From contig OZ020484.1 in assembly GCA_963971405.1 (NCBI GenBank), positions 16,740,001 through 16,804,000 of the forward strand: a stretch of DNA of 64,000 nt. Reading direction: 5' to 3'. Below are positions 6,815 through 57,320 of this stretch, piece by piece; position 1 is the stretch's first letter, and each line of letters opens with the position of its first letter. The DNA comes from Psococerastis gibbosa. Its lineage: Eukaryota; Arthropoda; Insecta; Psocodea; Psocidae. Position numbers and translations under genes: made by a program. The notes under the pieces are model-generated. The model worked only from the letters and a program-made list of their open reading frames with translations. It was not told the DNA's origin and ran no database searches.

Positions 6815-7198
6815 GGTGCCCATTCCATTGACCGGCTAGGGCTATTTCCAAAAACGGTGACGTGGTAGCAGACATTCAAGACTTAGGTGTCGTCTCCACC
6901 GACCTCGCATTGCAGATTGCAAGTGACATTGACGGAAATTAGAATTTTTCTTTTTATAGAAATCTATTAAAATGTTTGTAATTAACATATCCCATGAAGC
7001 CATTTTTTAATTTTAGTTTGTTTGTTTGTGATTTTATTGTATGATCATTGATCAATTTTAACTATGGCATAGAGGAAAATAAACATTTCCGTCAATTCTG
7101 CAATGCGAGGTCGGTGGAAACGCCACCTAAATCTTGAATGTCTGCTACCACGTCACCGTTTTTGGAAATAGCCCTAGCCGGTCAATGGAATGGGCACC
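6815..7198. mobile_element. PIF/Harbinger-like MITE, family 1, copy 1 (384 bp)
   Basis: A nearly perfect long palindrome: the arms begin GGTGCCCATTCCATTGACCG and pair with the other end over roughly 150 bp. It is flanked by the 3-bp duplication TAA (6812-6814 and 7199-7201), the TWA target typical of PIF/Harbinger. The box TGACGTGGTAGCAGACA starts 44 nt from the tip. A second end-like motif (TTTCCACCGACC-type) lies deeper in each arm. No transposase is present. Confidence 0.88.
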
Positions 7199-7639
7199 TA
7201 ACGTAGTTGACAAGATGATCACCTGAGTATTGTCATCAGATGTAGACGTAGACTATGGTACCCCCAGACCAGATTATGGTGATGCGAATATCCACTTTGG
7301 TGCGCGAAGACATTTCAGCTGAGTCAAGCGCAGCCTTACTATTACAGTACTATATTCCTATTACTAACGAATCCGCGTCCCTCTCCACAACTTGCTCAAA
7401 AGTAAAAAGGGTCTAGGAAGACCGAAAAATGCAGCACAGTGGTCAAGTATCAGCTTAATCACATGTAAATGTTATTCAATTTCACATTTTAATTGGTCCA
7501 CTTGAAATAAATTAGCCCCATGTAGTATGTTGAGGCCCATTATCATTTTGCACCCATTCATATTCTTTGAACATAGAACATTTTGAGGGAAAAACCCTGA
7601 GATAATAATCTTCATTCATGTGAGAACAATGGCCATATG

Positions 7640-7878
7640 TTTTTGTTTTTTTTAATTGAATTGAATTGAATTGAAAACGACTTTAATGCAAGAAAACAAA
7701 ACAAAAAGATTATTCGCATACAAACAATTCAATGAATGTATCCGAATAACCTCTTCAAGCGCCTCTGTAGGTAATACCTGTGTTGAGTTACGACAGGTTT
7801 CCGATCGCATGGTGTGTACAGCCTCGAACAACTCACAGGTACGAACAAGCTACCACTATGCCATCGAAGACCATTAGA
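7640..7878 (-). repeat. SINE-C copy 1 (tRNA-like head)
   Basis: On the minus strand it begins CTTCGATGGCATAGTGGTAGC, with an A-box-like TGGCATAGTGG, and runs through ATGCGATCGGA, CAACACAGGTATTACC, GAGGCGCTTGAAGAGGT and ATTGTTTGTATGCG to a simple (TTCAA)n tail near 7655. A second copy is at 43675-43840. Confidence 0.65.
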
Positions 7879-8514
7879 TCTAGCTGCTGCGTTTCCCATC
7901 AAACCTATCCCCTAAAGGACGATCGACTGTCTATGAGTGTCTAAAAATGAGGTTCCATGGGAATTTTAAACGAAAGCCCCCGATTAGCTACATATATAAG
8001 TGACTCGTATGCAAGGTTCTGAGGATTACTCAGCATTTCAGCCTTGCCCAAGATAATCCTTCAGTAATCCTCACGATATTTACTACCAGCCCATAGGGGA
8101 AAGAGGTGGGGTTTAAGCCTAACACATTTATCAGGGGGCCGAGGCATTGTTCAGTTCGCACACACAAATGCGTTACGGAACACGAATTTTGGGGAGGGCG
8201 GGTTTTCCGACCATTCATCTTCCATTCCAACTTCCTGGCATTCTTAATAGCTCCCAACCAACCAAAACTTTGCAAATTTACATTTTCAGCCGCAGAGGTA
8301 ACTTAAAAATGAGCTTCCTCTCATCGCTGGAAAATTAAACGAAACTTCTAATTTAATAACTTAGCTTAAACTTGAAGCTAAAGTATTGCTGACAACACTT
8401 GCATGCGTAACATTGCATCTAAACGTTTATGGCCACCACACCATCATAGCACTACCCTGTTATTACTGTTCCAAGAATTATTAGATTTAAAGAGGTATTA
8501 AACCAAAATACCCA

Positions 8515-8917
8515 ACTTGAATAGAGTAAGGCCACTAAGTCCAGCCACTAAGTTTAAGGGGAGCTTATCTCACTATAAGCTTTTGAGATAACCTCCCCCT
8601 ATATGTAGTGGCTGCCGCAGTGCCCGGTTTGGCCTTGTGGGAGCCCGCGGGCCGGAATTGTGTGGGGGCCCCTTCTCGAGCAGAACAGTCTTATGTACCC
8701 TTTGGGCTTAGACGAATATTCCACTATCAATGATAAAATGGAGACCCAAAGTCCCGCCAAATATTTGGACAAGTCTATTTGCATTGGTTTTTAATCTATT
8801 GTTATTTTGTATTTTTGTGGGGGGGGGAGCAATGGGGCCCTCCTGACCCCAGGGCCAAACCCGGCACTGGTGGCTGGATAAGTTCCGTTCGTCGGAAAGG
8901 GCCTTAGTCTATTCAAG
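8515..8917. mobile_element. Inverted-repeat element interrupted by a hAT
   Basis: Ends CTTGAATAGAGTAAGGCC and GGCCTTAGTCTATTCAAG are inverted copies. The interior holds a hairpin, GGGGAGCTTATCTCA with TGAGATAACCTCCCC (8559-8598), and a nested hAT element. I could not define a target duplication for the outer element. Confidence 0.55.
8618..8869. mobile_element. Non-autonomous hAT-type element nested in 8515-8917
   Basis: Ends CAGTGCCCGGTTTGGCC and GGCCAAACCCGGCACTG are inverted copies. The interior has a GGGGGGGGG run near 8819. GTGGCTG occurs close to both sides, offset by three bases on the left, so the target duplication is slightly degraded. Confidence 0.65.
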
Positions 8918-9336
8918 ATAGGTATTTCATAAACATTGTTTACAATTTATGAAAAACGAATGCTGTAGGTTTAGTGAAATTCAATAATACATTGAAATTA
9001 GTAATAAACAAAAACTTGACAGACAACATGTGTAGGCATAACGCCTAAGGCATTTAAATAGAAGCAAAGGTGTATTGAGGGTCACTTTCAATGTCGCCTA
9101 CAATGAGAACAAAACTGCGCAGTCACGTTAACATACATCAACCACTAGCGCAGAAACACAATACCCTGCATTACGCGGCTAAGCCAGGAGATATGGGACA
9201 TTAGATCCCACTAAAAATATAATTGAATCCTAGGGCCCACCTACTACGTCTTCTCAATGGCTAGTCACAGGAGACGTGGTTGCAGAAAATCAATAATAAA
9301 TTTTTGGCGGGAAGTGATTGTCAGATCTCTCCTATA

Positions 9337-9553
9337 GGCGGCTATTGCACCGACGTGGTTTTAATTGTGCATGTGCATGACGTGGTAGCAGACATCATTA
9401 ATAAGTCTCTACCATATTATAACTTAATTTATAATAGATAAGTTAAGTATCCACATTATAGTCTCCTTAAAATATGGCAGAGACTTATTAATGATGTCTG
9501 CTACCACATCATGCACATGCACAATGAAAATCGACGTCGGTGGAATAGCCGCC
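9337..9553. mobile_element. Harbinger-like MITE, family 2 (217 bp)
   Basis: Palindromic element with ends GGCGGCTATTGCACCGACG and, on the opposite arm, GGCGGCTATTCCACCGACG. It is flanked by ATA on both sides (9334-9336 and 9554-9556). The box TGACGTGGTAGCAGACA starts 42 nt from the left tip; its mirror copy near 9507 has one changed base. Confidence 0.75.
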
Positions 9554-9559
9554 ATATTA

Positions 9560-10510
9560 AACTGTACGTAAGCCATCTCTTAACCAGTGTCCCATTCGCC
9601 TAGAATTCGCCTAGGATTTTGGTAGTGGCTCGGTAGAGGAGGACGCTGGGCAATGGGACAGTGATCCCAGCTCACCAGAACCAGAAGAAAAAGCTTTAAG
9701 TCACTACTTGAATTAGGGCCTACTTCATTGTATAATTGAACAGAAATACTTATTTATTATTGATTTATAATGTGAATTTTGATTGAACACCGATAAATTA
9801 CTGTAACTTACATAGTACTATGTACAGAACAGAAGGACACATGTATATAAGCAACAGATTTGAGATATTTCGGAAGAGTTTCAGAGCAAATACTATTACT
9901 AAATAAAAAATCCTTCACAAAGTGGAACGAAAAAGGCGCTGATATTACGTTTGGGTCTATTTTGAAGTAAAAGAATAGACGTAATTAAAAACTAACTGAA
10001 ATAACGATTCATATTGTGTTTATGTTTATATGTTGAAGTTATAAAGCCAAAGCGCATCCTGCTTGCATATTTCTTAACATTGCTTGTATCTAAGCATCGC
10101 ACAATTAACTGTTTGTGATTGGGCTAAAAAGCGCACGACCCGCTAGATAACTAAGCAGAAATAGCCACAGTAGGGCCGCACCGTAACTGATTGGCTGTGG
10201 GCCAAAAATAAACAAACCGCTCGCCACGTGGACTTCCGGACACTATGGGCTACACATGCCATCAGGGCCGGAACAACTGATGAACCTAAGGAATTTTAGT
10301 ACTCTGTATTTCTGTTGGGTATTTTTGGCAACCCTCAAATTTGCTTTTCAAGAACGAGACTGCATTATCTGAAAATTTAAAGTTGGCAATCACTAAACAA
10401 TCAACTGCCAAAGAGACTAATTAGAGAACATCTGAGAATATATTTAAAGTTGGATCCGACTTTCCGAGAGAAAGTTTAACACACCCTATTTGCTTGTTAG
10501 CATTTCATCT
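9560..10510. other. No gene recognised
   Basis: Mixed-composition DNA, including a GC-richer patch at 10110-10260 with CCACGTGGAC. No open frame of note and no splice-bounded exon seen. Confidence 0.35.
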
Positions 10511-10515
10511 ATTAA

Positions 10516-10899
10516 GAGTGTACAGCCCGTAGGAAAGCGGCAGCCCGAAATTTAATACTTTTTATGTTTTATTTAATTAATCAAGCATTTTATTAAAGAT
10601 CTGGCTCATCAAAGTTGTAGAAGACTACTTCATGCATCATATAATAAGGTATTTTTACTTTTCGAAATTGTAGTTTTTTTATAAAATCGATTATACGTGA
10701 AAAGTTATTGTTTATAAAATATTTCCATGTTTCTTAAAAAACTACAATTTTGAAAACTAAAAATACCTTATTATATGATACATGAAGTAGTCTTCTACAA
10801 CTTTGATTAGCCAAATTTATAAGAACATGCTTAGTTAATTAAATAAAAAATAAAAAGTATTAAATGTCGGGCTTCGAATTTCCTACGGCCTGTACACTC
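10516..10899. mobile_element. TTAA-flanked palindromic MITE, copy 1 (384 bp)
   Basis: Flanked by TTAA on both sides (10512-10515 and 10900-10903), the target used by piggyBac-type elements. Ends GAGTGTACAGCCCGTAGGAAA and GAGTGTACAGGCCGTAGGAAA (reverse of the right end) are near-identical. The arms pair over most of the length, through GTAGAAGACTACTTCATG. No transposase. The piggyBac assignment rests only on TTAA and the palindromic ends. Confidence 0.8.
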
Positions 10900-11291
10900 T
10901 TAAGCTACGCTATGGGCTAGTTGAAGTGGAGTCAGTTTCCGCTGCGGGTATGGGTGGAAACAGTGGTGTGGTGCCGCATCAATACTTGTGCGTTTAATAC
11001 AGTCGAAATGAGGGATAGTTTGCTATTTTGATTATTCTTTTTCTTTTATATGCGACAGGCTCACATCCCACACCCTCCCAAGCTGGAACAGCTGTTAACG
11101 CGTTGTTTACCAAGAATATGGAGAAGAATCAGAAATTACAACAGTTGCTGCAGGGGTCGAGACCAGCCAAGCAATTTTCCTCCCTCGCCAACTAGTCATT
11201 CCAGCATTTTTAGTACAATATTGCATACATCATTCATAAGTAGGCAACAATACGTTCTAACACTAAATAAACACAGTGGCAGGCAGAGCTG

Positions 11292-11669
11292 CAGCCCGAT
11301 CATGGCGATTTGGGATAATCATAAAACCGGGGTTTATTTTTTAATGCCGAAGTAGTAGTAGGGTGTCACGTGAAGATGTTAAAATATGCGCGGGAAATTC
11401 AAATTGATACATTATTAGAATACAAGAGTATGGTTGCATTGTTTAATAATTATTTATGGCAATACTAATAAACGTTCAAATGTACAGGTAGAATTTTGAA
11501 ATATAATATGAATTAATGTGTCTACATTTAAGGGAGAAAAAATTGAAAACGCACCAAAAATATTAATTTATCAATTTGAATTTCCCGCGCATATTGCACT
11601 CATTTCTTTAAAACAATTGAATGAACCCGTTATTATAATAATCCCAAATCGCCATGATCGGCCCGCTGG
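11292..11669. mobile_element. Palindromic element with arms of about 130 bp
   Basis: Left CCCGATCATGGCGATTTGGG mirrors the right-hand CCCAAATCGCCATGATCGG, and inner ATGCGCGGGAAATTCAAATT mirrors AATTTGAATTTCCCGCGCAT. The arms have diverged between these blocks. No clear target duplication, so the superfamily is not assigned. Confidence 0.65.
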
Positions 11670-11679
11670 TACCGGGTGG

Positions 11680-13255
11680 TGTATAAGGTTGCAGCTTCAT
11701 CACCTTACCATTACGCCGATGCCATACTGGATCAAGGTTAATGCCATATAAGACAACGCGGCCTTCTCTTCCTCAACCTCTACTATAGCATTTTCGGACC
11801 GACAAACTAGCCCAATAAAAATATTCCAATCGCAAAGCGTAGTCTTGGTCATACAAATAGCCTATTGTAGAAAAACAGCAAATAACAAAAACAATAGAAC
11901 TATCCCACTTTGGTGGTTCAATGAATTTAATTGATTCGCCTTAGTAGAAGTATAAAATACAAATATTAAGGTTCTTGAACATCAAAGGTGTGCAATTATG
12001 AATCATATCTTGCTGATAAAATATATTAAAAACTATGTGTGCTTGGACCACACGATAGAGAAAGAGAAAATCAAGCACCCTCAAAGTTATAAAAAAAAAT
12101 GCTCCACTTCTAAGTTTTCTACAACAAAACAACATCCAATCTATGGGCCCAACCAATTGTTAAAAGACTGGGATTTGAGCCGTTTGAGGTCATTTCTCTA
12201 TAGCTACATGTATAGCCGGCACTTAGGAGATTTATATGAAAGACTGAAATTACTTAAAAAATCAGTAATTATCTCTACCTTTGACTAAAGCCAAAAAAAA
12301 ATTTTTTTAACTTGTGCTAGTTTTATTTATTTTATTTTAATTTAAAAAAAAAATGTCAGCCAGAGGCCTCATACCTTGACTGAAAATAAAGACAGTAGAA
12401 CTGGCTAGTGTCTATATTGTAGCTCAAGTTGCAAATTCTCTTCAAACTGCCAAAATCTGCCGCAATTGGAGTTCCCATTTTAAAAAAAAAAAAAAAAAAA
12501 GGTAAAAGCTTACTTAAGCTACCACGCAGTTTAAAAAGTCCAATAAAAATGCATATATAAAGAGGAATGCAAAGGTCCCATTGGTGAGGTAATTTATATT
12601 TTAAGCAAGGATTGTTATATTTGCATGCCTCTGATATGTTGTTGTTGTTGTGTTGTTACTTGGTAGCCAAAGGCTAATTTGAACAACCTCTTGGTCCTAA
12701 CGTTTCAAATAAATGTCTGCTCCCGCTGTACTACAAGTTGTACACTTGTTACTTCCATAAAATTTGTCGTAGGCCATAAGTGCCTATGGCCCTATACCTG
12801 CTAAAGCAAACAATCGACATAAAATGAGATGTAACTAAGTAAATAACTATACTTCGCCTATCCCTAATTCTTTCAGAAATGGGTTGCTGTTAGCTTTATT
12901 TAAACGATACTTAACCAAATTCTGCTCTTTTACTACGGGTAGCTTAACTAGTAGACCTTTAGCAAAAATTAAATAAAAAAAATATTTCACACATAGAGCT
13001 ATTCCTACGGGCTATTTCATATAATTCGAGAACAATAGATCATCTTTTAAAGTTCAGTCCGTTACTGGGTTACTACCTAGAAAAATGAATGTGTTACAGC
13101 CTTCGTACTCACTAACTAAACACTTACATGACAATTCTCGAGATAAATGAAGAAATCATAGTTAAAATTTACACACACGGCACCACATTTAAAGTAATAA
13201 TCAACAATATAAATATTTCAGAAAGTCAAAAAAAAAAATTATTCACCAAGCATTA
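11680..13255. other. No gene recognised; A-rich runs
   Basis: AT-rich DNA with A runs near 12482-12500 and a TTGTTGTTGTTG repeat near 12640. A 96-codon plus-strand frame at 11998 has no recognisable domain and is probably chance. Confidence 0.35.
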
Positions 13256-13261
13256 AGCAAA

Positions 13262-13600
13262 GCGTCCGCCATATTGTTTTTCATCTCCCTCCAGCGAAAC
13301 GCGAACACATTTTCTATATTCTAATGCCACTTATTTCTAGGTTGGCGGGAATTTCCGGTAATTTCAAATAATTTAGACAGTAACTAACAATGGGGTATAC
13401 AAGTGCTAGAGATAGAAGGATTCTGATGTTAATTTACGTTAGGTTCCTCGTAGATTAAGGAAAAATGGCCATTAGTTTAATTTTAAATGCAATATTTAAC
13501 TATTTATTTTAACTTTTAATGTGCAAATTTCATTCGGAAACATACGGAGGTGCTCGGCTTAAAATGGCGGCTCTGACGTCAGAGAATTGGAATTGAATGT
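13262..13600 (+). promoter_or_regulatory. Probable promoter of the gene starting at 13689
   Basis: Contains AAAATGGCGGC (13560-13570), a YY1/pho-type core-promoter motif, followed six bases later by the full CRE palindrome TGACGTCA. A second CCGCCAT motif near 13268 lies in the opposite orientation, and the region is richer in CpG than its surroundings. It sits just upstream of an ATG exon with a consensus donor. The opposite-strand motif could mean divergent transcription, but I found no coding exon on that side. Confidence 0.55.
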
Positions 13601-13688
13601 AAACAAAGGCTTTTTATATAGAGAAAAGCCGTAAGCGCGTTGTTACTTTTATTTATAACATTAATTTCTTTTCATTACGCATTTATCT

Positions 13689-13780
13689 ATGGATAGTTTT
13701 GTGCAGTGGGATTCAGGAAACTATCTATGCGGAAAAACCGTCTACTCAGTCCCCGAGACCAGAGGAGTTAAAGAATCTAG
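13689..13780 (+). CDS. Candidate first coding exon, unknown protein
   Basis: The ATG at 13689 opens a frame reading MDSFVQWDSGNYLCGKTVYS, then VPETRGVKES, and runs without a stop into AG|GTAAGC, a strong splice donor at 13781. The exon ends in phase 2. It lies about 120 bases downstream of the CRE and YY1-type motifs, as expected for a first exon. I do not recognise the protein; it has no signal peptide or membrane segment in these 30 residues. No downstream exon was identified, so the intron is long or the next exon is short and unrecognised. Support comes from the coincidence of promoter motifs, start and donor, not from homology. Confidence 0.5.
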
Positions 13781-13784
13781 GTAA

Positions 13785-15195
13785 GCATCTTCGTTAATTC
13801 AATGAACTAGAGTACTCTACTTAGGCCTAGTAGTAAAACCTTTTTGTTTGGAAAAACACAGTTGTCCCCATAACATGAAACGCATGTTCGATATGGCTAA
13901 GAATCGCTTGTGTAATGTGTTGGGTATTACTATATAGTCATCTTCTGTGAGGCCTGCAATAGGTAATACAGTAGTTGCTTTTAGAAAGCTAGTTTATTTA
14001 ATATTTGCATTTATTTACTACTTTATGTGTATACAGAGATTTGTTAGCCTATAATTATTGCACAGTACTGACGTTCATGTAAACCCTTCTCGCCGACTTC
14101 AGCCACTTTAACCGGCGTATCTTATCTGTCGGCAGCCATATAAACAATATGTTTCTATAGTTTTATAAGTCGTATTCGTGCAGCAAAGTACTGCACAATA
14201 TTTGTAGCACTGCGCTCGTGCATTTTCCATTTAAAATAAAAAAAAATTAACTGGCGTAAATTATGCTTTTGACTATGCAGAAAACTGTAGGGCTCTATAT
14301 AGTGCCTTAGAAAACTGTAAACAAATTCTATGACGCGTCAAGGGGGCGTACCCAATGTGGCGGGGTAACCTTTAAAGCCATTTATAAATAAGAAAAAAAC
14401 TACTTAAACCATGAATTGAAAGAAAATTTATCGTTTATTTGATTTTTATTAATCAATGCCTCTTTTTAAATCATAATAATGTTATAATGATAGTCCAGCC
14501 GGTTTCGTCTATTGCTAACTTAATATTATTATTACAAAGTCGTTAGTTGTTGATAATTCAGGGCAATCTCTGCAAAAGATTAAATATGGAATAACTATTA
14601 GACTAGGTGTCACATTGGTCGAATCAATGCTGAGGTTATTGAATTAGCCTATAGATGGCATGAAAAAAATTATTTGCGCAATAAAGAATAAAATTTATTT
14701 TCAAATAATAATGGTACGGCGCAATATTGGTACGTAAGTATACGTACGGCTGTATGGTATATATATATATATATATATAAACATACTCAATTTCATTGCG
14801 CAACTATTAATAATCATAATACGTACCCTTGAAATTAATAATTGATATTGATGAACATACATTTTTGATAACCTCAGAATAATAAAATTTGTCCTAAATG
14901 ATAATTCTAGACGTTAAAATATAGCATAATCTCAAAATTGCAGGATTTCTTAAGAAATCGGCTATTGACGCATGATCTTGGCTAGCCACCTATGCCTCAT
15001 TTGCCACTTCGCGAACTGCGCAGTCAACCAGTTTAAACAGTGTTGTTGTTCTTGTCGTCGTTGATGATGTTATTGAAACTCAGAAGCACGCTCGCTTAAT
15101 TAGAATCTCCAACTTCAGATCATGTAGGGGTGGTGTGTTAGAGGATTTAGGAATAGACAGAGTTCTAACATTTAAGTACACGATTGATTGATTGA
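13785..15195. other. Probable intron; AT-rich with simple repeats
   Basis: AT-rich DNA containing the (TA)n run listed separately and, near 15183, four GATT units. No exon or dispersed repeat recognised. Confidence 0.35.
14758..14779. repeat. (TA)n microsatellite
   Basis: About eleven uninterrupted TA units. Confidence 0.9.
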
Positions 15196-15204
15196 TTGAT
15201 GGAG

Positions 15205-15548
15205 TAGGCAGCTGCCTAGGGGCCCCCACGCAAAATTTAAAAAAAAAAAACACGAATTTAAAAGGTAAAAAATAAGTAAATTTCTTGTGACAAAAATAAT
15301 TTTAAATTTTTAGTATGGCGAGAAATTTAGTGTCGTGGCACCTAACAGTGACACGTTACCGTTTTCCAAAATTGAAATGTGAGGACAAGTATTATGCTCT
15401 TATTTTTATTGTTCCTCCTTTTCCTAATACCTACTATACTCTGCATCTGCAGTGTGACAGTGAGGGCAAGCCAATGGAGCTTCTTCTTTTGGGAGGGCCC
15501 CCACAGAGATCTGTGCCTAGGGGCCTCCAAAGCCTAAATCCGGCCCTG
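15205..15548 (-). mobile_element. hAT-like non-autonomous element, GGCCCCTAGGC type
   Basis: On the minus strand it starts CAGGGCCGGATTTAGGC, and both ends carry GGCCCCTAGGCA/TGCCTAGGGGCC subterminal repeats. The CAGGG tip and repeated subterminal motif resemble hAT elements. The second tip is not clean, so no 8-bp duplication could be shown. Confidence 0.5.
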
Positions 15549-15738
15549 GGGGGACCAATGAAAAACAAAACAGCTGCTTCTTGACATGCCGACCTTGCCT
15601 CAGTTCTGTCAGGAATATAAAAAATACATTATATCTTTGTCAATCTTATTAGGTACATACAGTAAAAAACACACAACCGGTTTTGACCTTTTATGTCTTT
15701 GTAAACAATTTTTAATTTTTTTTAATGACACCATAGCA

Positions 15739-15960
15739 TTAGGCTTCCGCCATCAGCTTTCTTGCAGCCCATAATCTGCTACTGACAATAGCCTGGCACG
15801 TCTTAAGATGGTTTCCGTCCATCCCCTCCCGGTTGTCGCATAAAGGGCAGAAAGGCTCCGCTGCTAGGCCTACACCTATAAGTTACTGTGTAGATGTTTT
15901 TGAAGGTACCATCTAGCCATGACCCGTAGTCTGTAAACAATTCATCCTTGTTAGATTTGG
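15739..15960 (-). pseudogene. LINE ORF2 C-terminus with CCHC zinc finger
   Basis: Minus-strand reading gives EPFCPLCDNREGMDGNHLKT, then CQAIVSSRLWAARKLMAEA and a stop at 15739-15741. The C-P-L-C ... H-L-x-x-C pattern is the zinc finger found after the RNase H domain of jockey/I/R1-type LINE ORF2 proteins. Upstream sequence is recognisable only in shifted frames. An A-rich tract follows the stop, consistent with a LINE 3' end. Confidence 0.65.
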
Positions 15961-16224
15961 CAGTTTATTTATAGCTTGCAATTACTTGTCTCAATTTAAA
16001 TTTTCACTTGACGATCACATAAGGTCGAAAACAGTCGTGTTTTTTGTTTTTAATTTGATTGACAAAGATAACTTATAGCCTAATATTCAAAATATTACAA
16101 AGTTAAAAAGGAGACTTATAAGAGAGGCAGGAGAGGCTGAGTTCTCTTTTGTCGAGTTCTCTTTTGTCACCCCCCGTCCCCCATCCATTGAGCGAATAAG
16201 GGGCTACTGATATAAGCCAACCAC

Positions 16225-16228
<4 letters not shown>

Positions 16229-16257
<29 letters not shown>
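16229..16257. repeat. Poly(A) run of 29
   Basis: Uninterrupted A tract. It may be the tail of a retroposed sequence on the plus strand, but the sequence upstream (16060-16228) matches no SINE or LINE here apart from a short ATATTACAAAGTTA motif shared with 60058 and 39810. Confidence 0.9.
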
Positions 16258-18567: not shown

Positions 18568-18705
18568 GGCGGGGTTTCCACCAACGTCAATAGTGATAGT
18601 AAATGTTTTTTGACGTGGTAGCAGACAGTTTTAGACAGTCTAAAAATGTCTGCTACCACGTCAAAAACATTTACTATCACTATTGACGTCGGTGGAATCC
18701 CCGCC
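18568..18705. mobile_element. Harbinger-like MITE, family 3 (138 bp), at the KDM3 promoter
   Basis: Near-perfect palindrome with ends GGCGGGGTTTCCACCAACGTC and GGCGGGGATTCCACCGACGTC, flanked by TAC on both sides (18565-18567 and 18706-18708). The box TGACGTGGTAGCAGACA starts 44 nt from the left tip and is mirrored in the right arm. It ends about 210 bp before the KDM3 start codon. Confidence 0.8.
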
Positions 18706-44326: not shown

Positions 44327-44712
44327 GGTGCCCATTCCATTGACCGGCTAGGGCTATTTCCAAAACGGTGACGTGGTAGCAGACACTCAAGACTTAGGTG
44401 CGTTTCCACCGACCTCGCATTGCAGAATTGACGGAAATGTTTATTTTCCTCTAGTCTATGCCATAGTTAAAATTGATCAATGATCCTACAATAAAATCAC
44501 AAACAAACAAACTAAAATTAAAAAATGGCTTCATGGGATATGTTAATTACAAACATTTTAATAGATTTCTATAAAAAGAAAAACAAACATTTCCGTCAAT
44601 GTCACTTGCAATCTGCAATGCGAGGTCGGTGGAAACGCTACCCAAGTCTTGAGTGTCTGCTACCACGTCACGGTTTTGGAAATAGCCCTAGCCGGTCAAT
44701 GGAATGGGCGCC
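44327..44712. mobile_element. PIF/Harbinger-like MITE, family 1, copy 2 (386 bp)
   Basis: Same palindrome as 6815-7198, flanked by TTA (44324-44326 and 44713-44715). The box GGTGACGTGGTAGCAGACA is at the same distance from the tip. A 65-codon frame crossing its centre is a by-product of the palindrome. Confidence 0.88.
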
Positions 44713-45989: not shown

Positions 45990-48900
45990 TGCTTGTTTTC
46001 AAATAAACACAATATTCACTGACTTTTAATCAATTGCTGGTGAGGCAGTAATTCGTTCAGATGGGTTGAAAACTTTTCTGCTTAATTTACATATATATTA
46101 CCTTTAAGCAACAGTTTTGAGCCCGTCGATTTTTTTCTATGATCACTTATAGGGGTGTTATATTTCGGAGTCGGGCAAGCCGGTGCCTACTCCTGTAAAA
46201 TTTTGTTCTGTGAAGTTAGGTACTTTTTATTTATGAAGACCGTGAACCTACTTGCCATCGATTTACTAAAGCTCATCTCCTTTTTTTTTCTTTAACAAGA
46301 CACTGCTATATTTGCCTTGAATCATGAAGATCCCGCCATTTCCCCTGCAGCCCAACATTCTACCATTTTAAGAGCGTCCGGTTTTTTTTACCAGTTCGCC
46401 GGAAATTACTCTTCTCTCAAAGTTTTTGTTTCTCCTTTCACATTTTCCCTCCCTTTTGCTGAATATGATTTAAATTGCTGATTTTCCATATCTCACCAGC
46501 CCTTTTACCATAGTTTGCAAGTTTTGTTATCATATCGAAAACATCGTGCCTGGTTTGCATGTGCCTAAAAAATAATAATGAGTTTTTATGTTTAAAAAAA
46601 TGGTTCAGTTAATTAAAGTATGTTCATAGCTTGTCTGGACGTACAGTATTAAAGTAAAAACATTAAAACATTTGATAAGTGTGACGTGACCACTCCAACC
46701 CCCCATCCCCCAAACCATCTGTATTACCTATGTACCAAATCCGATGTCACACGTACATTCTATATAGGCATGTGTCAAAATGAAGAGGGACATTTCTTCG
46801 GTCCCATGCTTCTTCAGCTCTGCGATCAATAATTATTATAGCATTTTATTTGATTAAAACCGCAGATACAGCGCCGCTGTACAATACAATACAATACTCC
46901 ACTCTACTGCACTTAATAGATTAGAAATTTCGAAGTTTCAATAAGAAATTTCTTGCATTATGGCATTAGTTTTTACTTTGAAGTTAATACTGAAGTTCGA
47001 AGACTCTCAGCGCCTTCGATTTCCCAGTAATTCATTGGTTCTTACATTAATCGATTGAAAACTTACAATATATTTCTATAACATTGTTTCCAGTTTTATA
47101 GGGCTCCATAGCCCAATTGACAGATTTTCGTAGCTAAGTGGCCATGTCTTCTGTTGCATTATTTATTATGCTTTTTGTCATATACTAAAATTTATTTTAT
47201 TCAGGCCCGTAAGCAGCAGTGCAGCAGTCCGGACCCCCCCCCCCCCAAAAAAAAATGGCGAATCGCCGGGGAGACCCCGGTCCCCTTTTTCCCAGTTTTG
47301 TTGATAAAGTCATCGTCAGCCGTATATATACATCAAAATGTGCAAAACTCCACAATTTCAGGCCTATTTTTTCAAAAAATCTTCGCGGAGGAAACCCCCC
47401 TTTGGCCTACCGACCCCGCGGGTGGGGAAGTTGAGATCATGCCCCTAATTAGAAGATGCGTACGTCCATGAGAACGGCTTTCCTCTTTTCCACTGTTTTA
47501 CGAAAATACGGGGGGGGGGAGCGCCAAATGAAACACCACCCCGTTCGAAAACCTATCGTAAGCGGGCAAACTTTATGAAAACTGGATCCCCAAAAAAAAT
47601 TCTGGCTACGCCACTGGAAAGCAGGATGGCTTTCGTTGGGGGCGGGGCTGCGATCTCATAGCATGTAGTGAAAGTCCAGTTCTATCTAATGTAAAGCTTA
47701 TAAATTTCGGGAGCTGCAGCCCCCCACCCTCCCCCCTGGATACGAGCCTGATTTTATTCAATGTATTTTGTTTCTGCTGATCTGCATACGTAATGCAGTT
47801 GTTATGTCACGTACCCCCCAGAGCAAATTTAGTAATTCGTAAACTCCTAATAATGATGGGTTGATAAGAATATCGGGAAAGATGGATCGTACGATAAGCA
47901 TTGATGGCCACAGTATTGGACACGGTGAATTAACTCATATTATCATCAGGTATTGACGGGAAAAGTGGTTGGCCTTTACGTGAAAAAAAGGGACAGCCTA
48001 CAACAAACTGGTTTTCATGGAGGATAACTTCCCCGTGTTACCTGCTCTCTAGTACCTACATTTCCATTGCAAATGGTATTTTACGAAATGAGTGAGTTCA
48101 TAGTTTGGAATGTTATCCTTCATCCTGCCCATCTAAGAACTTTCCAATGCATGCTGTTAGTATTGTATATACTATATAGGATTTATCGTAACATCCTCAG
48201 TTACAACAAGCACTGGTGGTTGAAGAAGTAGAAGAAATGCTCACCTAATGTAACCTTGAATTTTTTCACGCCTTCAAAAACTGTGACCAAACAGTGTGTT
48301 TTTGTCGGCTACATACTATGTATGAAAATATAGAGGAACATTTCTTCTAAGTCTTCTGCTCCATGATGATTATTTTATAACAGTGCAGTGTGTGGGGGGT
48401 CTGATTTTCTCTTAAAAACACAGTAAGCGCGTGCTTAGGGCCCCGAAAAATAGAAACTTGAAACTTTGAACGCAACCATTTTTATTGATACTGACAGCAA
48501 TCCTGTTGATTTTCTGGAGAGTAACTGTTTTTTGTTGTTCCACTTCGGCCTAGGCCGGTACAGACACGTAGACCGCTACACTGCGTAGGTAATATGTGGT
48601 CCATTTGAACGCCAAGCCCCCACCTGGACGTTGCGCGCCACAGATTATCATCACGGATGATTTACGGTACTTCCTACAAGATTCCTCGGTAATGCGACCG
48701 GTCTGCAGAAGATACTGGCTGCACGCCAACTCCGCGCATTTCTCATCTATTTTCATGTGTTCCCGCAATATTACGTTCGGAATGCTGTCTTGTCAAAATA
48801 TGGGGCGGGCCGATGTACTCTGCAGTTGACCTTCCCTGAATAGTACCGCATATTAAGCCACGTCACTGATAAATCACATCTTCTGGGGCAGGTGGTTGGT

Positions 48901-49050
48901 TATCTCGTATAAGATTATTAATTTCATTAAATGACCCATATGGGCCAGTTGTCATCATCATCAGTATTCAGCTCCAGTTACCCGGGTGTGATATATGATC
49001 CTCCTCCACTCTCTACTGTCTCTCCAGTTCTGATTATTCAACGTTCCTCT
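45990..49050. other. No gene recognised; several G/C-run fragments
   Basis: Includes G/C runs near 47235 and 47512, and C-rich sequence near 47720 with tip-like GGCTACGCCACTG (47602) and GGATACGAGCCTG. These suggest further hAT MITE debris that I could not pair. Frames near 48550-48830 overlap on both strands without known domains. Confidence 0.4.
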
Positions 49051-49058
49051 TGTACTAG

Positions 49059-49237
49059 CAAGGCGGTAGCCAGGATTTCGTTCCGGGGGGGGGGGGGGGG
49101 TTTCAGAAATTTCATAGAATATTACAAGGTGGTTTTTATTTTTCCTCTCAAAATCCGATTCTATCTATTATCAAGCCATTTCATTTCGGGGGGGGGGGGG
49201 GTGGGGTGAACCCCCATGACCCCCCCCCTTGGCCTTG
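49059..49237. mobile_element. G/C-run hAT MITE (179 bp)
   Basis: Tips CAAGGCGGTAGCCAGG and CCTTGGCCTTG are flanked by the perfect duplication TGTACTAG (49051-49058 and 49238-49245). Two G runs (16 and 13) and a C run lie inside. It landed at the edge of the LINE fragment at 49246. Confidence 0.88.
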
Positions 49238-49245
49238 TGTACTAG

Positions 49246-49500
49246 TATTCTTAGAACTCTTCTTCGTGTTCCCTCTGCTTCTTCCTCCAGCCATTTCCTC
49301 GCGTATCTGCTGTTATCCATTCGCTGTACGTGTCCGAATCATTGCAGTCTAGTCTTCTCTCTATCTTCTCTACCAATGCTGGTTCTTCCACCCCGAACTC
49401 TCTTCTCATCCTTTTATTTCGAATCCTATCCCATCTTGCTCTCTTACTGTGCCTTATCCTCATGGAGGGTCGGCGGCACAACAGCAGTGTTTCCACGAAG
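49246..49500 (-). pseudogene. LINE ORF2 fragment (post-RT region)
   Basis: Minus-strand frame: RIRHSKRARWDRIRNKRMRR, then EFGVEEPALVEKIERRL. This resembles the RTRxDRxRNxxIRxxLxVxxxxxKIExxRLRWxGH stretch after the reverse transcriptase of RTE/CR1-like ORF2 proteins. The preceding and following parts are frameshifted. Confidence 0.6.
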
Positions 49501-49504
49501 TCCT

Positions 49505-50015
49505 GTTGTGTGCGTCCTCGGTTGAGAGCCCCAAACTTGTCATACCACCGGCGAACTTTCTTCTCAATGTACCTATCGGCCTTCCTGGTGGTCTTTTTCC
49601 TTTTATCTCCCTGTGATGAGCGTGAGGAGTCATTTCATTTTTTTCTTAGGGAATTAAAGATTCATCGAATAGGGAGGAGGGTTTGGGGTTCTGTACTAGG
49701 TATAATTTGTCTGCAGTATTTAAAATTCAAGGTGTCTAGGTATATACTGAATGCATTGTATATTTTTATTTATTTAGCTAAGTAATGCTGCAGCAGGCCA
49801 TGGCCATAAGTATTATGTATGTGTGTGGAACTAGGAAATTAAAAACTACCGTTTATCGGTTGTTTCGTAGAGGCGTTGGGTTGTTACCGGTACCCCGCTA
49901 TTCTATATTAGTAGTTTTTATTAATTCATATAATCTCAATGGTACCCAGATTAAATTAAATGTTACCTAGTCCTCTTTACTTTATCTTGCTGCCGACGGC
50001 CTTACCATGTTGATT
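49505..50015. other. No gene recognised
   Basis: Short frames only; the first 100 bases may continue the LINE fragment in a shifted frame. Confidence 0.35.
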
Positions 50016-50019
50016 CCAT

Positions 50020-50340
50020 TAGAGCAGAGCATGTTTCAAACTGCGGCAACTTGGTAGTGTGCACAGCGTTGGCAGGGGAACCTGGTGGGACATGATAACG
50101 CGCTTTGGCAGTATAAGTCGAGTCCTGGTCACCTCCGATTTAATCGTGTGACTTTACCATGTCCCCCAAGTGGTTCGGAATCCACTATAATCGGGAGGTC
50201 CACCCTGTCAGTCAACTCCCCTTTCCCCGAGGTGAACGAGTCTGCCCTTAGGGTGCCTCAAGTTAACAAACAGACTCACTCCCCCCGCCAGGCTGACAGG
50301 GTTGCTTAAAAAGCAGAAATGCTGAAAGCAGGCGTTAGAA
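50020..50340 (+). repeat. Dispersed repeat D, fullest copy
   Basis: Carries all blocks seen in the other two copies, from TTTCAAACTGCGGCAACTTGG to CAGGCTGACAGGGTTGCTTAA and GCAGAAATGCTGAAAGCAGGCG. It overlaps a 74-codon frame that is probably not protein-coding because the copies are not frame-conserved. Confidence 0.7.
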
Positions 50341-50932
50341 ACAACAACAAACAGTTTTTCTTGCTAATAGCACGCTCCTTACTGCTAGTTTATTTTTTAT
50401 TTTTACTCAGAATAACTTGAACTTGGCAAGATATTAAAATGGAATACCTGTAGAACTTTTGTTACGCAGTGTTGTTACCCCACAGAAGTATTGGGCGTTA
50501 GTCTATATAGGAAGTTTGTCGGGGACTTACATCACTGTGTTGGAGTTTGACTTTCAGTCAATCCTTACCTGAAGCTTATAGCAGGTAAATTAATTGCATT
50601 GCAATTGCTCTGTGCTCGACTAATTCCAATTGCAAACTGAATGTGTATATTCTCTCCGTCGTGTTTGTCTTCTATGGTGAACAACATCTTCTGTTTTCGA
50701 AAATGGACCCTTGAGCTACATTGTCTCTCTTTGTATTTACCAGCATTATTGTGCTTGCTGCTGGATATACTGTTGTACTATGCAGCAACTAAAGGACATT
50801 GCCCTCTGGTCTTGCAATTCTAGACAATCCAGTATAATTTAATATTTGTTTCTGGGCATGAAGCAGTAATTTAGCTTCTGTTGTTGATGTTACCAAAGCA
50901 CCCTTCAGAGGAATTAAACAAGAAATAAGAAC

Positions 50933-51515
50933 TTGTAGAGTAGTGGTGCGGACACTGACTTTCACTCGAAAGGTTGTTGAATGTTGGTTCAAGTCTCGCG
51001 CTTGCTATATATTATTGTTATGCTTCGGAGGGCATGTAAGTCAGGCGGACTCCGGCCGTCCTAGTTGATTAAAATAGTCTTAAGAGGAAGCTGACTGCAC
51101 ACATTGGCCATCCCTGAATCACCTTAAAATATGTTGGTTTATATTTTTTATTTAAGTTAATACTTCAAGTTATACATAGGTTTGGTCTACTCAATTGATG
51201 GAGGACTATTTCATGCACAGTACAATGACTATTTATTTAGTTTTGGTCTAAGGGGTTTTCCCTGAAACTGATAATAGATAGAAATTTACCGAATTATCGA
51301 ATTCATGGAAAAATTATACCAACAAAAATGAAAAACACCTTATAACAGGATGTATGAAATATTCCTCTAGCAATTGAGTAAACCAAATCTTTTTAAATTA
51401 AGTATTAACTTAAGTAAAAAATATAAACCAACCTGATTCAGGCTGATCCAGGGGTGGCCAATGTGTACGGCCAGCATCCTCTTAACTCCACTAGGTTAGC
51501 TTAGTAAAGGCGTAT
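50933..51515 (+). repeat. SINE-B copy 5, split by a TTAA element
   Basis: The head and proximal body (50933-51068) are followed by the TTAA element. The distal SINE-B body, TAACTCCACTAGGTTAGCTT, resumes at 51484. The uninterrupted copies have CTAACTCCGCTAGG at this point. Confidence 0.75.
51084..51481. mobile_element. TTAA-flanked palindromic MITE, second subfamily (398 bp)
   Basis: Flanked by TTAA (51080-51083 and 51482-51485). Ends GAGGAAGCTGACTGCACACA and GAGGATGCTGGCCGTACACA (reverse of right end) are followed by TTGGCCA on both arms. Inner arms pair through GAGGACTATTTCATGCA-type sequence. Related to 10516-10899 in interior layout but with different tips. Confidence 0.8.
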
Positions 51516-51701
51516 TTTGTTACACGAATTCGAATTTGGATTACTGGATTTGGTGCATTTTGTTACCAAAGGGGGCGGAGCGTATTAAATGTTCGATTCT
51601 TAACCCGGATTAGAAAACAGGATTAGTATTATGTATTCAATAATATTTAATCTTGGTCGGGAGGTAGATCAGATATTCATTTTTTTTCTGATAAGTTTTT
51701 T

Positions 51702-52455
51702 GCTTTCCAATTTATACGTAGTATAAGGAAAGCTTTGTGATGGTCGAAATTTTCGATTCCGAGATTTCAACGGATTTACACGTTTTGAGGTCCCAGGAAC
51801 CCAAAAAAGTGGTTTTTACAAAATGTCTGTCTGTCGGTCGGTCTGTCGGTCGGTCTGTCTGTTCGTCGATTTCCGGGCAAACTACTCAGTGGATTTGAGT
51901 GAAATTTGGCATGTAGGTTCACAAAAATCATACCTCGGGACCATTTTTTTTTTTTTTTTTTTGGGCTAACTCAATTTGGGGGGTTTTATTTTCAAAAAAA
52001 CTCCAAAAAAACGTCTAAAAAAATTATTTCTCAAAAACGGCTCCAACGATTTCTTTTAAATTCTCGTAGATTGTAGTCGTTATTAATGTTGACAAAATGC
52101 GGGGGGTCGCTTGCCCCTTGATAGTTTGCTTCTGGGAGTAAAAAAATAAAAATAACTAAATTTTAATGAAAAAATGACTAAAAAATGCGAAACCTTTCTA
52201 TCGATGATTTCTACCTTCAAGCATGTTTTAGGTGTTAAATTGAGTAACGAAACCGGATAGGTTGCTTTCCCAAAAAATATTTGGTTTTGCCCAAAAAATT
52301 ATTTTTTGAAAAAAAATGATAGAAAATTCGCGCTCAAATGCATTGCATGCCCTGCCATTATTGCTGTGTGGTAATTAAATAGTGTTTGTTTGACCTATCG
52401 AGAATTTACCTCACTTCCAGTGACGTCAGGTGGACAACCGCAATCACAGCCCATC
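51702..52455 (+). repeat. Dispersed repeat R, fullest copy
   Basis: Begins with GCTTTCC then GGAAAGC, a small hairpin, and CGTTTTGAGGTCCCAGGAAC. A CTGTCTGTCGGTCGG simple-sequence zone, GGGCAAACTACTCAGTGG, a T run, GGGCTAACTCAATTTGG and GCGCTCAAATGCATTGC follow. It ends near CAGTGACGTCAGGTGGACAA. No frame of note, no terminal inverted repeats found. Confidence 0.8.
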
Positions 52456-52469
52456 AGCCCAATTTCCAC

Positions 52470-53690
52470 TGGTTCTTCATTTTTTTTAGTTAGTTGTTTT
52501 AAGTTATTTTTTATAATGGGTGATGTTGATATCATTTATTTTCTTCAAATTTTGGATTGGCGCCTTTAACTTGAATTCATGTCTACTGCTTAGAATATAA
52601 TATTTGAATATCACAATACGCTCATTTTGTTGCATTTTTTGCTTCTTTTCCTCCTGTTCCCTGATTGGTCCAACTTCTAATACGGATTTGTGTTCAAATG
52701 TAAAATATTCGTGTAACAAAATACGCCTTAATTGACAAAAGTCATTCTTTAAATTTAAATAAGTATACGGTGCTCGTACCTTTCTCGATAGCGTATTCTT
52801 GTATGAACAATTTCGAGGACTATATCATTGCTGTTGTGCAAACGTTCAGTATGTGATTCTAACATATAGAATCGTTTGTGGCATTTTTATATCGCATTTC
52901 TATATTCGATTTAAAACACGTACTTCCTAACCCATTTCACGTACATAAATAACCTAAACACTGATGTAACCTAACCTAACTAACAATATCAACCTTATGG
53001 AATAATTGACTAATGACGCTCCCTGTAATTAAGTCACACACGATAAATGCCCGTGGCTATAGAAGAAAAGAAAAAAAAATGTAAGTGATTGAGAAATATA
53101 TTATTATTATTGTTATTATAACGGTAGACATTATTAAGTTGATTTCAGTGGCCTAGAAAACTTAAATTTCTTTGCTTGCATAATTGTACCTGTTGTGTTT
53201 TAAGTGCATTCATCATAATTTTATAAGAATGGAAAATGTATTTAATTCATCATATAATGAATGAATAAACGGACATTCAATACTTATAATCATGTCATGA
53301 CTATGGTTATTTTTTCTGAAGATAGACCTCTTTGTTAAAATTGAGTAGAAGACGACTTTGACATGTATGATATTTTTTGTAAGAAAAGCTTCATATGCGT
53401 CGCTGTAGAAATGTACAATATACATCTCAGAGAAGAATTTGTAGTAACAAAGGAAACGAGGGCCTTCGGCCCCTTATTGCCCTTATTATTTCCACTCTAG
53501 TTCTCTTCTCAGAATTAAATAATATGTGAATGTCGGCGAGCTGTCTGAGCTGTGGGCTTCTTGTTGCAATTTTGTTAAATTATAACAATGCTCCTATAGA
53601 GCTAAGGGCATGTTGCTGACCACAACATTACAAATAGTGTCCTCAATCCCTCATTGTATTGTTGTGCCACGGTGTTTTTTTCCTGAGCTA
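52470..53690. other. AT-rich DNA, no gene recognised
   Basis: Nothing shared with other parts of the window; a few TAACC repeats near 52968 are too short to be telomeric. Confidence 0.35.
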
Positions 53691-53699
53691 AAACATTTT

Positions 53700-54092
53700 A
53701 ATAAAAAACGCCCGGTACGACAACCCAGTGAGGTCCGAGGCCTGAGGGCTGGCAGAGAATCCTCTCTCTTCACCACTGACCTTTTTTGGGGCCAGCCATA
53801 TGCCCGACAGCCGCCTTTTCTCCCTACTGATGAAGGAGAGGTACCCATTGGGCAATGGCGGGTCCACAGGGGGGGGGGGGGTCATGACTCCCCTAAATGA
53901 ATAAATTCATAAGATACCTAGTTTAAAAAAAAAAAAAAAATCGACAAAAAAAAATACCTTTAAACTTTCAAACAATTTGTGATCCCCCCTAAATTTTCTT
54001 GCCATTAGGGTAGGTATTGGTAGGTTGAGTCCAGTCCAGGCGGAATTTTCTGTCAAGTATCGAATCTCTGCCTTCCGTTTCATAGCCTAGTT
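53700..54092 (-). repeat. SINE-D copy 2, interrupted
   Basis: Blocks shared with 5815-6075 (ACAACCCAGTGAGG, GGCCAGCCATATGCCC, TGATGAAGGAGAGGTACCCA, GTCCAGGCGGAA, TTCCGTTTCATAGCCTAGTT) are split by the insertion at 53853-54001. Confidence 0.55.
53853..54001. mobile_element. G/C-run hAT MITE in SINE-D (149 bp)
   Basis: CAATGGCGGGTCC at one end, TTTTCTTG at the other, flanked by CCATTGGG (53845-53852) and CCATTAGG (54002-54009), 7 of 8 matching. A related fragment is at 55925-56035. Confidence 0.65.
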
Positions 54093-54576
54093 CAGAGGCT
54101 CTCAAAGGGTGGTCCGCGGACCCCCGTACCATTTTTAGCACTAGTTAGAATTATAGGTACCTACATTATTTAGTCACGTAGTTTTTACTTGTTTATACTC
54201 TTCGTCAGTAGTTAACTTTTCAAAGTTATTAAAGCCGACAATCAATTTTTTTTTTTTAATTTCAAGACCTTGTTGATGTTCCAATATTTTTGGTATGAGG
54301 GGGCAGGGGCGGATTTCAGGGGGTCTGGACCCCCCCCCCCCAAATAAAATGAACTTACACTAGATAAAAATTGGTTTACAGTGGGAGTTAAAAATAATAA
54401 TGTTTATTAATGTTATAATCCACTGAATCTGCCCGCTGACCCCCCCCCCCTCCTAAATTGGAGGCAAAATCCGCCCTTGGGGGGGGGGGTATGATATGGT
54501 ATGATAAAAGGTTTGGCGTCCGCCGAACCATAGTATTTTTAGGGTGTCCGCGGTATATGAAGTTTCAGAGCCCCTG
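54093..54576. mobile_element. Non-autonomous hAT element (484 bp) with nested element
   Basis: Tips CAGAGGCTCTCAAA and TTTCAGAGCCCCTG, with GTCCGCGG beside both, are flanked by GCCTAGTT (54085-54092) and GTCTAGTT (54577-54584), 7 of 8 matching. Confidence 0.85.
54304..54479. mobile_element. G/C-run hAT MITE nested in 54093-54576 (176 bp)
   Basis: Tips CAGGGGCGGATTTCAGG and AAAATCCGCCCTTG are inverted copies with 10- to 13-base C runs inside. Both flanks are G-rich, so the exact duplication cannot be read. Confidence 0.7.
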
Positions 54577-54589
54577 GTCTAGTTCTCTA

Positions 54590-55920
54590 CCTGCTGGACT
54601 AATCTTGACCATACATTTTAATCACCTTTAGCTAAAAAGTGAATCAAGGGAAGTACAATAGCATATTTAAAGGGAACTTTACAGATTGAAGTCATTAAAA
54701 TGTAATTATATTCTCCATGCAACTAAACAAATCATGAAATTTGTAAGCAAATAACTGCGTTGGATATGTTCTTGCGCATGCGTATAGGCTTGTGAACGGG
54801 GTTCCCAGGTAAATTAAGAGAAAAATTGTACTAATTCTAATGTAAAATGTAAAATTACTAATGTAAAATTGTCTAATTCAGTATTTCCTTGTAAATATTT
54901 TATCGTAGTAAGTATTAAGTTCATAGTTTGTGCAACAATAAATTAATGCAATAGATTAGAAGGGAAGCGTTGTAAATTATGTATAGTTATTAAGTAAAGA
55001 AAATATTAGCATTTTCGCGCCAATAATGTTTTCGAGAGTCTGCGTTGTAGGTTATTAGTTTTGGTACATTTTTGTGAGGCTGGCCTTGAAGACGCCGATC
55101 CCTCTCTTACGAGTAAATTGAGTTAATGGCTGCTCTATATTGTCATAGGGTCTTATGAATAAAATAAGTTACGTTATTAACGTTGTATTAACTGTGCTTA
55201 TGTTTTTTACAGGTAAGCCTATTCAGTGGATCCTGTGAAGCCTCCTGCTGAAACTTGCAGATAATGCTATATATCCATAAGTACCTGCCTATATTGATAA
55301 TTCATAATAATAATAATTGTGTGTGCAGTATTATTAGTAACTGTACTAAGCTAAAATGTTCTTTTATGCGAGGAATATCCGTGAATGATTACAATACTTA
55401 TTATTGTTTCGCTAAATTGACTCTTTTATCTAGGTTATATTTTTCACTTGCTGTGTATAAATTCTATATATGCGCCATAATGGGATTATTTTTAGTGACA
55501 ACTCTTTTTTTATGACGCTATTTTGTAGGTTATTTCTTCCATTCACCTTTACTTATTGCTTAGAAAAACAAATAGTTTCAAAGCCACAAATAGTTCCTAG
55601 ACCACCTTGTATAGTGCACATTTAATTCATTATAGGTCACATTACATGACCAACATCGTCAACAAGATCAATTCAATCTGATTGATAACTCGATAAGATT
55701 GCTCAATTTATTAATGTTTGCCCGCTATATTAAAGTAGTATTTGTATTATATCTATATCATGTAACGTGTGAGATTAAATACGTAACCCCCACTATCCAT
55801 TTTTCATCAAATTCGAATTTCTTCTTCTTCTTCCCCCTTAATGCCGCGTGCGCAGCGTGGGGGGTCGCCCCGCGCCCATTTCCTGAACTCGCCCCGGTCG
55901 GACGTTAACGCCTTGAGCTC
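54590..55920. other. AT-rich DNA, no gene recognised
   Basis: A short GC-rich patch at 55840-55925 preceded by TTCTTCTTCTTC may be a LINE 3' fragment; no exon found. Confidence 0.35.
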
Positions 55921-55924
55921 GGCC

Positions 55925-56032
55925 ATTGTTTTCATTCAATTCATAAGATACCTAGTAAAAAAAAAACCATTTAAACGTACAAAAACTTGTGACCCCCCTA
56001 AATTTTCCGCTGGATCTGCCCTTGATCGTAGG
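55925..56032. mobile_element. Fragment of the 53853-type hAT MITE
   Basis: TTCATAAGATACCTAGT, GTGACCCCCCTAAATTTTCC and the tip GATCTGCCCTTG match the family, but the left tip is missing. Confidence 0.5.
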
Positions 56033-56374
56033 GCCATCAATGAAATGTCATATATATATATATAGAAATGTTCCTCAGCATTTTTATATATAGCAGTATG
56101 TGGTTTCCACTAATACCGTTTGTATTGTAGTTTTTGAAGGCTAGGTTAGATTAGGTATTGTAAGCCTTCCAAAACTGTGGCGGTGACGCAAACAAGTCAT
56201 GTATAAAAATATAGAAGAAATTGTCGTCGACTTTTTGTCATGTTACACAGGTCTACGACCAATATTTCCAATGCAACTTCACTTTGAACAACAGCGGAGG
56301 TTGGTGATTTTCCACGCATTGTCCCCAAATAGTCCATCGTATTGGTGGATACAGTGAATGCAATTATTCTGTTA

Positions 56375-56520
56375 CAAGGCCGTGCCCAGGGGGTGGTCCA
56401 AGGGGTTCGGACCCCCTCCGAAATAAAATTGCTTTACGCTGAATAGAATGGACTTCCATTAATAAAATAGTTTAAAAAAATTTGGACCCCCTCCCAAACA
56501 AAAACCTGGGCACGCCCTTG
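56375..56520. mobile_element. G/C-run hAT MITE (146 bp)
   Basis: Tips CAAGGCCGTGCCCAGG and CCTGGGCACGCCCTTG are flanked by the perfect duplication TTCTGTTA (56367-56374 and 56521-56528). Same family as 18063 and 32452, but with shortened homopolymer runs. Confidence 0.9.
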
Positions 56521-56941
56521 TTCTGTTACATATTGTTTTTTACTGAAAGCCAGTCAGCAAAACTTTCGTATATTGGGAACAAAATGCATCAACATCGACA
56601 GTCAACACGGTATAAGATGATTTTTATTGAGCATCTACGATTCATGTCATGCATTAGGTTATTACAAAATAAATATATTTATATTTGGTTAAACTATGTA
56701 CATATGTAGTGGTATAGCCTACTGCTAACGTCGTGGTTGCACGTTAATTCTTAGGCTGCGGATGGTGCCGAAATAATGTTATTTGTTGAAAGGGGTCAAG
56801 GTAGATTAGTAGGTGGAACCTGCATATTTCTTAGTCCATTACAATTTAAAAATACTGTGCTACATTCACTCAGTGACACATACGGTAGGTACCTCAAATT
56901 GCCTTTAACGGCATTATGTTTTTTTTTTTTTTTTTAACTAA

Positions 56942-57320
56942 GGCGCCCATTCCATCGACCGGCTAGGGCTATTTACAAAAACAGTGACGTGTAGCAGACA
57001 TTCAAGACTTAGGCGAGGTTTCCACCGACCTCGCATTGCAGATTTGACGGAAATGTTTGTTTTCCTCTATGCCATAGTTTAAATTGATCAATGATCATAC
57101 AGTAAAATCACAAACAAACTAAAATTAAAAAATGGCGTCATGGGATATGTTAAGTACAAACATTTTAATAGATTTCTATAAAAAGAAAAATTCTAATTTC
57201 CGTCAATGTCATTTGCATTCTGCAATGCGAGGTCGGTGGAAACCCTGCCTAAGTCTTGAATGTCTGCTACCACGTCACTGTTTTTGTAAATAGCCCTAGC
57301 CGGTCGATGGAATGGGCACC
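56942..57320. mobile_element. PIF/Harbinger-like MITE, family 1, copy 3 (379 bp)
   Basis: Flanked by TAA (56939-56941 and 57321-57323). Same palindrome as 6815 and 44327. One base is lost in the left subterminal box (GACGTGTAGCAGACA). The deeper arm motif reads GGCGAGGTTTCCACCGACC, closely matching the terminal sequence of family 3. Confidence 0.88.

Follow-up and report, generated by a model that had tools for sequence, protein, structure and literature searches.

A terminal tip and a subterminal box at a set distance mark the ends of PIF/Harbinger-type MITEs in Psococerastis gibbosa: a proposed two-part recognition

Introduction

PIF/Harbinger transposons need both a transposase and ORF1, a protein with a Myb-like domain, and yeast results are consistent with a division in which ORF1/Myb binds the DNA and the transposase carries out catalysis (PMC2836001). 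One of the closest described systems is that of Harbinger3_DR and Harbinger3N_DR from zebrafish, in which a Myb-like partner recognizes a subterminal motif of 9 bp and non-autonomous copies are moved by two proteins (PMC2836001, PMC9710019); as of 2022, according to the latter source, it was also the only one where the binding of the partner to a subterminal motif had been demonstrated experimentally. Regarding the rice elements mPing, Ping and Pong, which are Tourist-like, miniature inverted-repeat transposable elements (MITEs) are cross-mobilized by related two-protein systems, and internal regions affect their mobility (PMC2836001, PMC9921582). A two-block layout of the ends is already known in outline for this superfamily. 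Here, five MITEs from a stretch of 64,000 nucleotides of the insect Psococerastis gibbosa (contig OZ020484.1, positions 16,740,001 to 16,804,000, hereafter the window) are compared with these systems, together with their relatives in the 409-Mb genome, having a terminal tip and a 17-bp box at a nearly constant distance from it.

The likeness with Harbinger3_DR concerns the presence of a subterminal motif, compared by description and not by letters. The zebrafish motif has 9 bp versus the 17 bp of the block described here, to which no source protein has been linked. No paper on the box was found in the literature searched, where the letters of the box themselves were not used as a query.

The end module in the window

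The five elements lie where an earlier note on this DNA had placed them. Family 1 is represented by 6815..7198 (384 bp), 44327..44712 (386 bp) and 56942..57320 (379 bp), with the target site duplications (TSDs) TAA, TTA and TAA, respectively; family 2 by 9337..9553 (217 bp, TSD ATA); and family 3 by 18568..18705 (138 bp, TSD TAC), which is hardly more than two head-to-head end modules. The tip form GGYG-N4-TTCCAYYGAC (GGYGNNNNTTCCAYYGAC) proposed in the earlier note is exact at eight of the ten outer tips, and the left tips of the elements at 9337 and 18568 show one change each.

Offsets are counted here from the first tip base to the first box base on a 0-based scale, so that 41-43 corresponds to 42-44 in the 1-based count of that note, a position confirmed on all ten arms. 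The box (TGACGTGGTAGCAGACA) is exact on eight of them, has one mismatch on another and has lost one base on the last, compared to 0.11 matches at ≤3 mismatches in shuffled windows. In family 1, exact boxes were found at 6858..6874 (+) and 7139..7155 (-), both at offset 43, at 44369..44385 (+) and 44654..44670 (-), both at offset 42, and at 57261..57277 (-, offset 43), together with the copy lacking one base at 56985..57000 (+, offset 43), which was read off the left arm. Family 2 carries an exact box at 9378..9394 (+, offset 41) and the one-mismatch copy at 9495..9511 (-, offset 42), and family 3 has two exact boxes, at 18611..18627 (+, offset 43) and 18647..18663 (-, offset 42).

Regarding their classification, identical 3-bp flanks were seen on both sides of all five elements, as expected from the 3-bp duplications of PIF/Harbinger type that had been claimed for them, with the usual TWA present in three and ATA and TAC in the other two. 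Terminal inverted repeats also occur in 5/5, with arms of 43 to 103 nt, some broken into pieces.

A box-like sequence with three mismatches was also seen outside the elements, at 9272-9288, 65 nt to the left of the family 2 element, and no tip was found near it.

Abundance and spacing of the two blocks

Throughout the genome, the box at ≤1 mismatch occurs in 38,515 copies, with none for the backwards control, and the exact tip, pooling outer and inner tips, in 43,865 copies (control 6). An exact box followed by the tip core at a gap of 10-40 was found in 21,789 pairs (control 0), a query in which the conservation of both blocks is by construction, and at least 20,902 of these pairs have an offset of 41-46. 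Outside this range, there are 637 pairs at 16-40, where a minor group at offset 38 accounts for 51 of the 100 listed, 250 at 47-53 and 57 at 54-84. Among the first 100 pairs listed, all from contig C1 and serving for spacing and spacer classes only, the offsets were 42 (12), 43 (76), 44 (2), 45 (8), 46 (1) and 53 (1).

The tip was also searched alone, and 34 of 100 listed plus-strand tips were classed as inner tips of the composites described below, a class for which a box 26-30 nt upstream was one of the criteria. Among the other 66, an exact box lies within 120 nt in 43, and always at offset 42-44. A random distance between box and tip, which the earlier note had chosen in advance as evidence against its reading, was thus not seen in either query, and it is well supported that the tip and the box form a real, tight and very abundant two-block end module. 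The same note described the spacing as about four helical turns, a proposal that the data touch weakly: there is a small excess at offset 53 (28 of the 100 pairs listed from the 250 at 47-53) and at 54 (12 of the 57 pairs at 54-84), partly due to local duplications, and helical phasing is not claimed here.

Divergence of the spacers

Clustering by spacer divided the 100 listed arms into seven clusters, the largest with 82 members, and eight arms were compared: six cluster arms, that of window family 3 (B2) and that of a nested MITE (G) described below. The spacer of class A, to which family 1 belongs, is no more similar to any of the seven other arms than shuffled sequence is (z -0.7 to 1.6), while its box is identical in six of the seven and has two mismatches in G. 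In contrast, mutual relatedness of the spacers was found among B, B2, C and G (z 2.2 to 5.7) and among D, E and F (z 3.1 to 6.4), with borderline values for C against D, E and F (z 1.9-2.0), B against D (2.1) and D against G (1.9). Divergence along the arm is therefore far from uniform, and uniform divergence, the second outcome that the earlier note had set against its own reading, was not seen when run as a test.

As seen in the window itself, family 1 agrees with families 2 and 3 in 16 and 17 of the 17 box positions and in 3-8 of the 24 spacer positions. The earlier count of three families holds for family 1, whose spacer is unrelated to the others, but families 2 and 3 agree at 14 of the 24 positions of the spacer without gaps, and their class arms, B and C, gave z 4.2; they would thus probably represent a single lineage, and the window would hold two spacer lineages.

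A possible two-part recognition of the ends

We consider it fairly probable, judging from the sequences, that these are non-autonomous PIF/Harbinger-type MITEs with two-part ends, the tip being the site of the transposase and the box that of a partner of Myb/SANT/MADF type. The outer tip would be where the DDE transposase cuts and joins, and the box, mostly 41-46 bases further in, would provide a second sequence-specific contact, most likely for a partner encoded by PIF/Harbinger elements that recruits the transposase to the end. Elements retaining both blocks at the set distance would then have been amplified, one machinery, in the sense of one set of proteins, serving all families, so that the blocks stayed alike while the spacers drifted or were replaced. 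It is inferred here that the blocks are recognition sites at all, as well as which protein touches which of them.

Search for a source element

For a source of such proteins, the DDE_Tnp_4 profile gave 150 scored places among 220 candidates, and 45 of the 150 were read, including 1.5-kb flanks in 30 of them and as stretches of about 5 kb in 12 and about 4 kb in 3. The box is absent in 25 of these loci, at ≤4 mismatches in L030-L038, L042-L053 and L078-L080 and at ≤2 mismatches in L029, and present in the other 20 (L009-L028), always within a nested MITE. These 20 loci were tried as autonomous elements ending in a box pair and rejected, as the repeat that they share runs on past both sides of the box hairpin, which is consequently a nested insertion. 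This hairpin MITE, of 151-162 bp and with TTA flanks, sits inside an ISL2EU-like repeat that has HTH_Tnp_4, DDE_Tnp_4 and a YqaJ frame, separating the DDE frame from the YqaJ frame; ISL2EU is described as DDE plus YqaJ (PMC9179366). The box is therefore not part of the ends of that repeat; the call was made by inspection of the site itself or of alignment ends in 11 of the 20 loci and by alignment to L012, L018, L010 or L016 in the others. The nested MITE, for example that at L011:2574-2724, has its box at offset 45 on one arm and at 55 or 66 on the other, via short tandem duplications. At L029:2573, an ISL2EU-like copy is about 99% like the others up to the base before the left tip of the nested MITE and then diverges, perhaps after a failed excision.

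Regarding the partner, its candidate domains gave 9 matches for Myb_DNA-bind_5, 15 for Myb_DNA-bind_4 and 113 for MADF in the genome. MADF matches are often close to DDE_Tnp_4 matches, several at a distance of about 0.5-5 kb, so that PIF/Harbinger elements with the usual two genes are present; the loci read across both genes were L078-L080. Of 17 loci tested for an inverted repeat enclosing the transposase and flanked by TTA or TAA, one, L079, gave a strong candidate, compared with none in 51 shuffled loci. The AT-rich candidates in L045 and L047 are weak and were left aside, and the long inverted repeat of L043 carries a different tip. Separately, 17 elements at the loci were paired by requiring equal 3-bp flanks, which is no test of TSD length, and their counts were not used as evidence; L006, L008, L061 and L077 are probable mis-pairings among them, and L010, L011, L013, L014 and L015 are copies of one nested insertion.

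The L079 element (C2:50586200-50590400) has 2,840 bp, the TSD TTA and frames for MADF and DDE_Tnp_4, the latter interrupted. Of the 14 specified positions of the MITE tip, 10 are matched by the tip of this element (P 0.0014 for one ungapped comparison). Its arms have 24 bases in common, then differ, and then share AACAGTGTTYGCGA from offset 33 on both arms, a block seen by eye. Considering the 45 of 150 places read, three of them across both genes, the tip of the window MITEs is thus partly common to an element with both genes, but the box is not. A common layout with distinct second blocks would be expected if the second block were specific to the partner of each family, as far as one element can suggest.

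Several points weigh against the two-part reading. The autonomous Harbinger with the same tips and box that the earlier note expected was not found among the 45 of 150 DDE_Tnp_4 loci read, and L079 has no box at ≤4 mismatches. An exact box is lacking, by mutation or absence, in 23 of the 66 listed tips that are not inner tips. In addition, the partner is said to bind the terminal inverted repeats, with no subterminal site named in the available parts of the sources (PMC2836001, PMC9179366), and the contact of Myb-type domains covers about 6-8 bases, short of the 17 in the box (PMC9921582). The same paper found no internal block common to mPing and mPong, whereas here one block is common to several spacer classes.

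Alternative explanations

The earlier note had proposed that the tip and the box are the recognition sites of one transposase. Their role as recognition sites agrees with two blocks at a fixed spacing across unrelated spacers, genome-wide, but the assignment of both to one transposase does not follow the superfamily, which splits binding and catalysis between two proteins. A single transposase contacting both blocks with a bipartite DNA-binding domain, and no partner on the box, is possible but not preferred, and we regard it as unlikely. Fixed spacing and joint conservation would suit one rigid protein, PIF transposases are predicted to have a helix-turn-helix (PMC9710019), and the ISL2EU-like transposase described above has HTH_Tnp_4; however, the spacing is not fully rigid, covering 41-46 with a group at 38, two proteins were required where this was tested, and excision was lost when the Myb-like domain of ORF1 carried a mutation (PMC2836001). 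With DNA binding and catalysis assigned to separate proteins (PMC2836001, PMC9710019), contact of the box by a second protein is no less likely than the involvement of a single transposase.

Common descent without function, in which one lineage kept the box and the tip by chance or spread them by recombination or gene conversion, appears improbable. The spacers are related within each of the two groups above, with C against D-F at the borderline (z about 2), and exchange between families does occur, as seen in the composite structure of family 1. However, the spacer of class A has reached shuffle level against all seven others with its box unchanged, uniform divergence would not spare 17 bases lying 25 bases from the tip, and it is hard to envisage how exchange could be restricted to a pair of short blocks in both arms. 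Finally, that the box is a host transcription-factor site kept for regulation is very hard to credit, as its resemblance to bZIP sites, at TGACGTGG, is a likeness of sequence alone and leaves unexplained both the fixed tip distance at the two ends and the conservation of all 17 bases.

Composite and minimal elements

In family 1, each outer tip is followed 69-71 nt further in by a second, inner tip, about 28 nt past the box start. These inner tips were found at 6886..6903 (+, one mismatch) and 7110..7127 (-, exact) in the first element, at 44625..44642 (-, one mismatch) in the second, whose left inner tip at 44396 has three mismatches when ungapped, and at 57012..57029 (+, exact) and 57232..57249 (-, one mismatch) in the third. 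The inner arm, a tip followed by CCTCGCATTGCAGA, matches by eye the terminal arm of another family, where the box is at offset 46 (C1:2573261), and family 1 looks like a composite in which one MITE family carries the ends of another inside its own. An exact box 38-48 nt downstream was found for none of the 34 listed inner tips, suggesting that amplification probably proceeded via the outer module.

At the other extreme, exact boxes placed head to head 1-31 bp apart gave 3,186 matches, corresponding to 1,593 places, each found on both strands, and the 138-bp family 3 element belongs to this kind. The gaps in 50 listed places were 17 (8), 18 (30), 19 (7), 20 (1) and 29 (4) bp, and never below 17. 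Shortening of the elements stops outside the boxes among these listed places, which fits with the box being needed, in a query that required two boxes and in which elements missing one cannot appear.

A stronger version of the two-part reading, which we put forward as rather doubtful, is that the box at 41-46 is the complete second site of one machinery that amplifies any DNA bearing the module, including unrelated spacers and a composite of two families, and that extra spacing is tolerated mainly in helical-turn steps.

The window also has other inverted-repeat elements with different tips, at 10512-10903, 58185-58533, 51080-51485, 11291-11666 and 57332-57592. The first two have GTACAGCCCGTAGGAAA-like ends in common, and the last begins 11 bp past a family 1 element.

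Significance

Many thousands of short elements having the same two sequences at a fixed distance from their ends and differing in between are what would be expected if one machinery recognizes both. The genome of P. gibbosa offers transposon ends in very large numbers as a natural sample, from which the rules for sequence and spacing at a PIF/Harbinger end can be derived and then tested, and the two-part reading predicts a 17-bp site, and its distance from the tip, for a DNA-binding partner.

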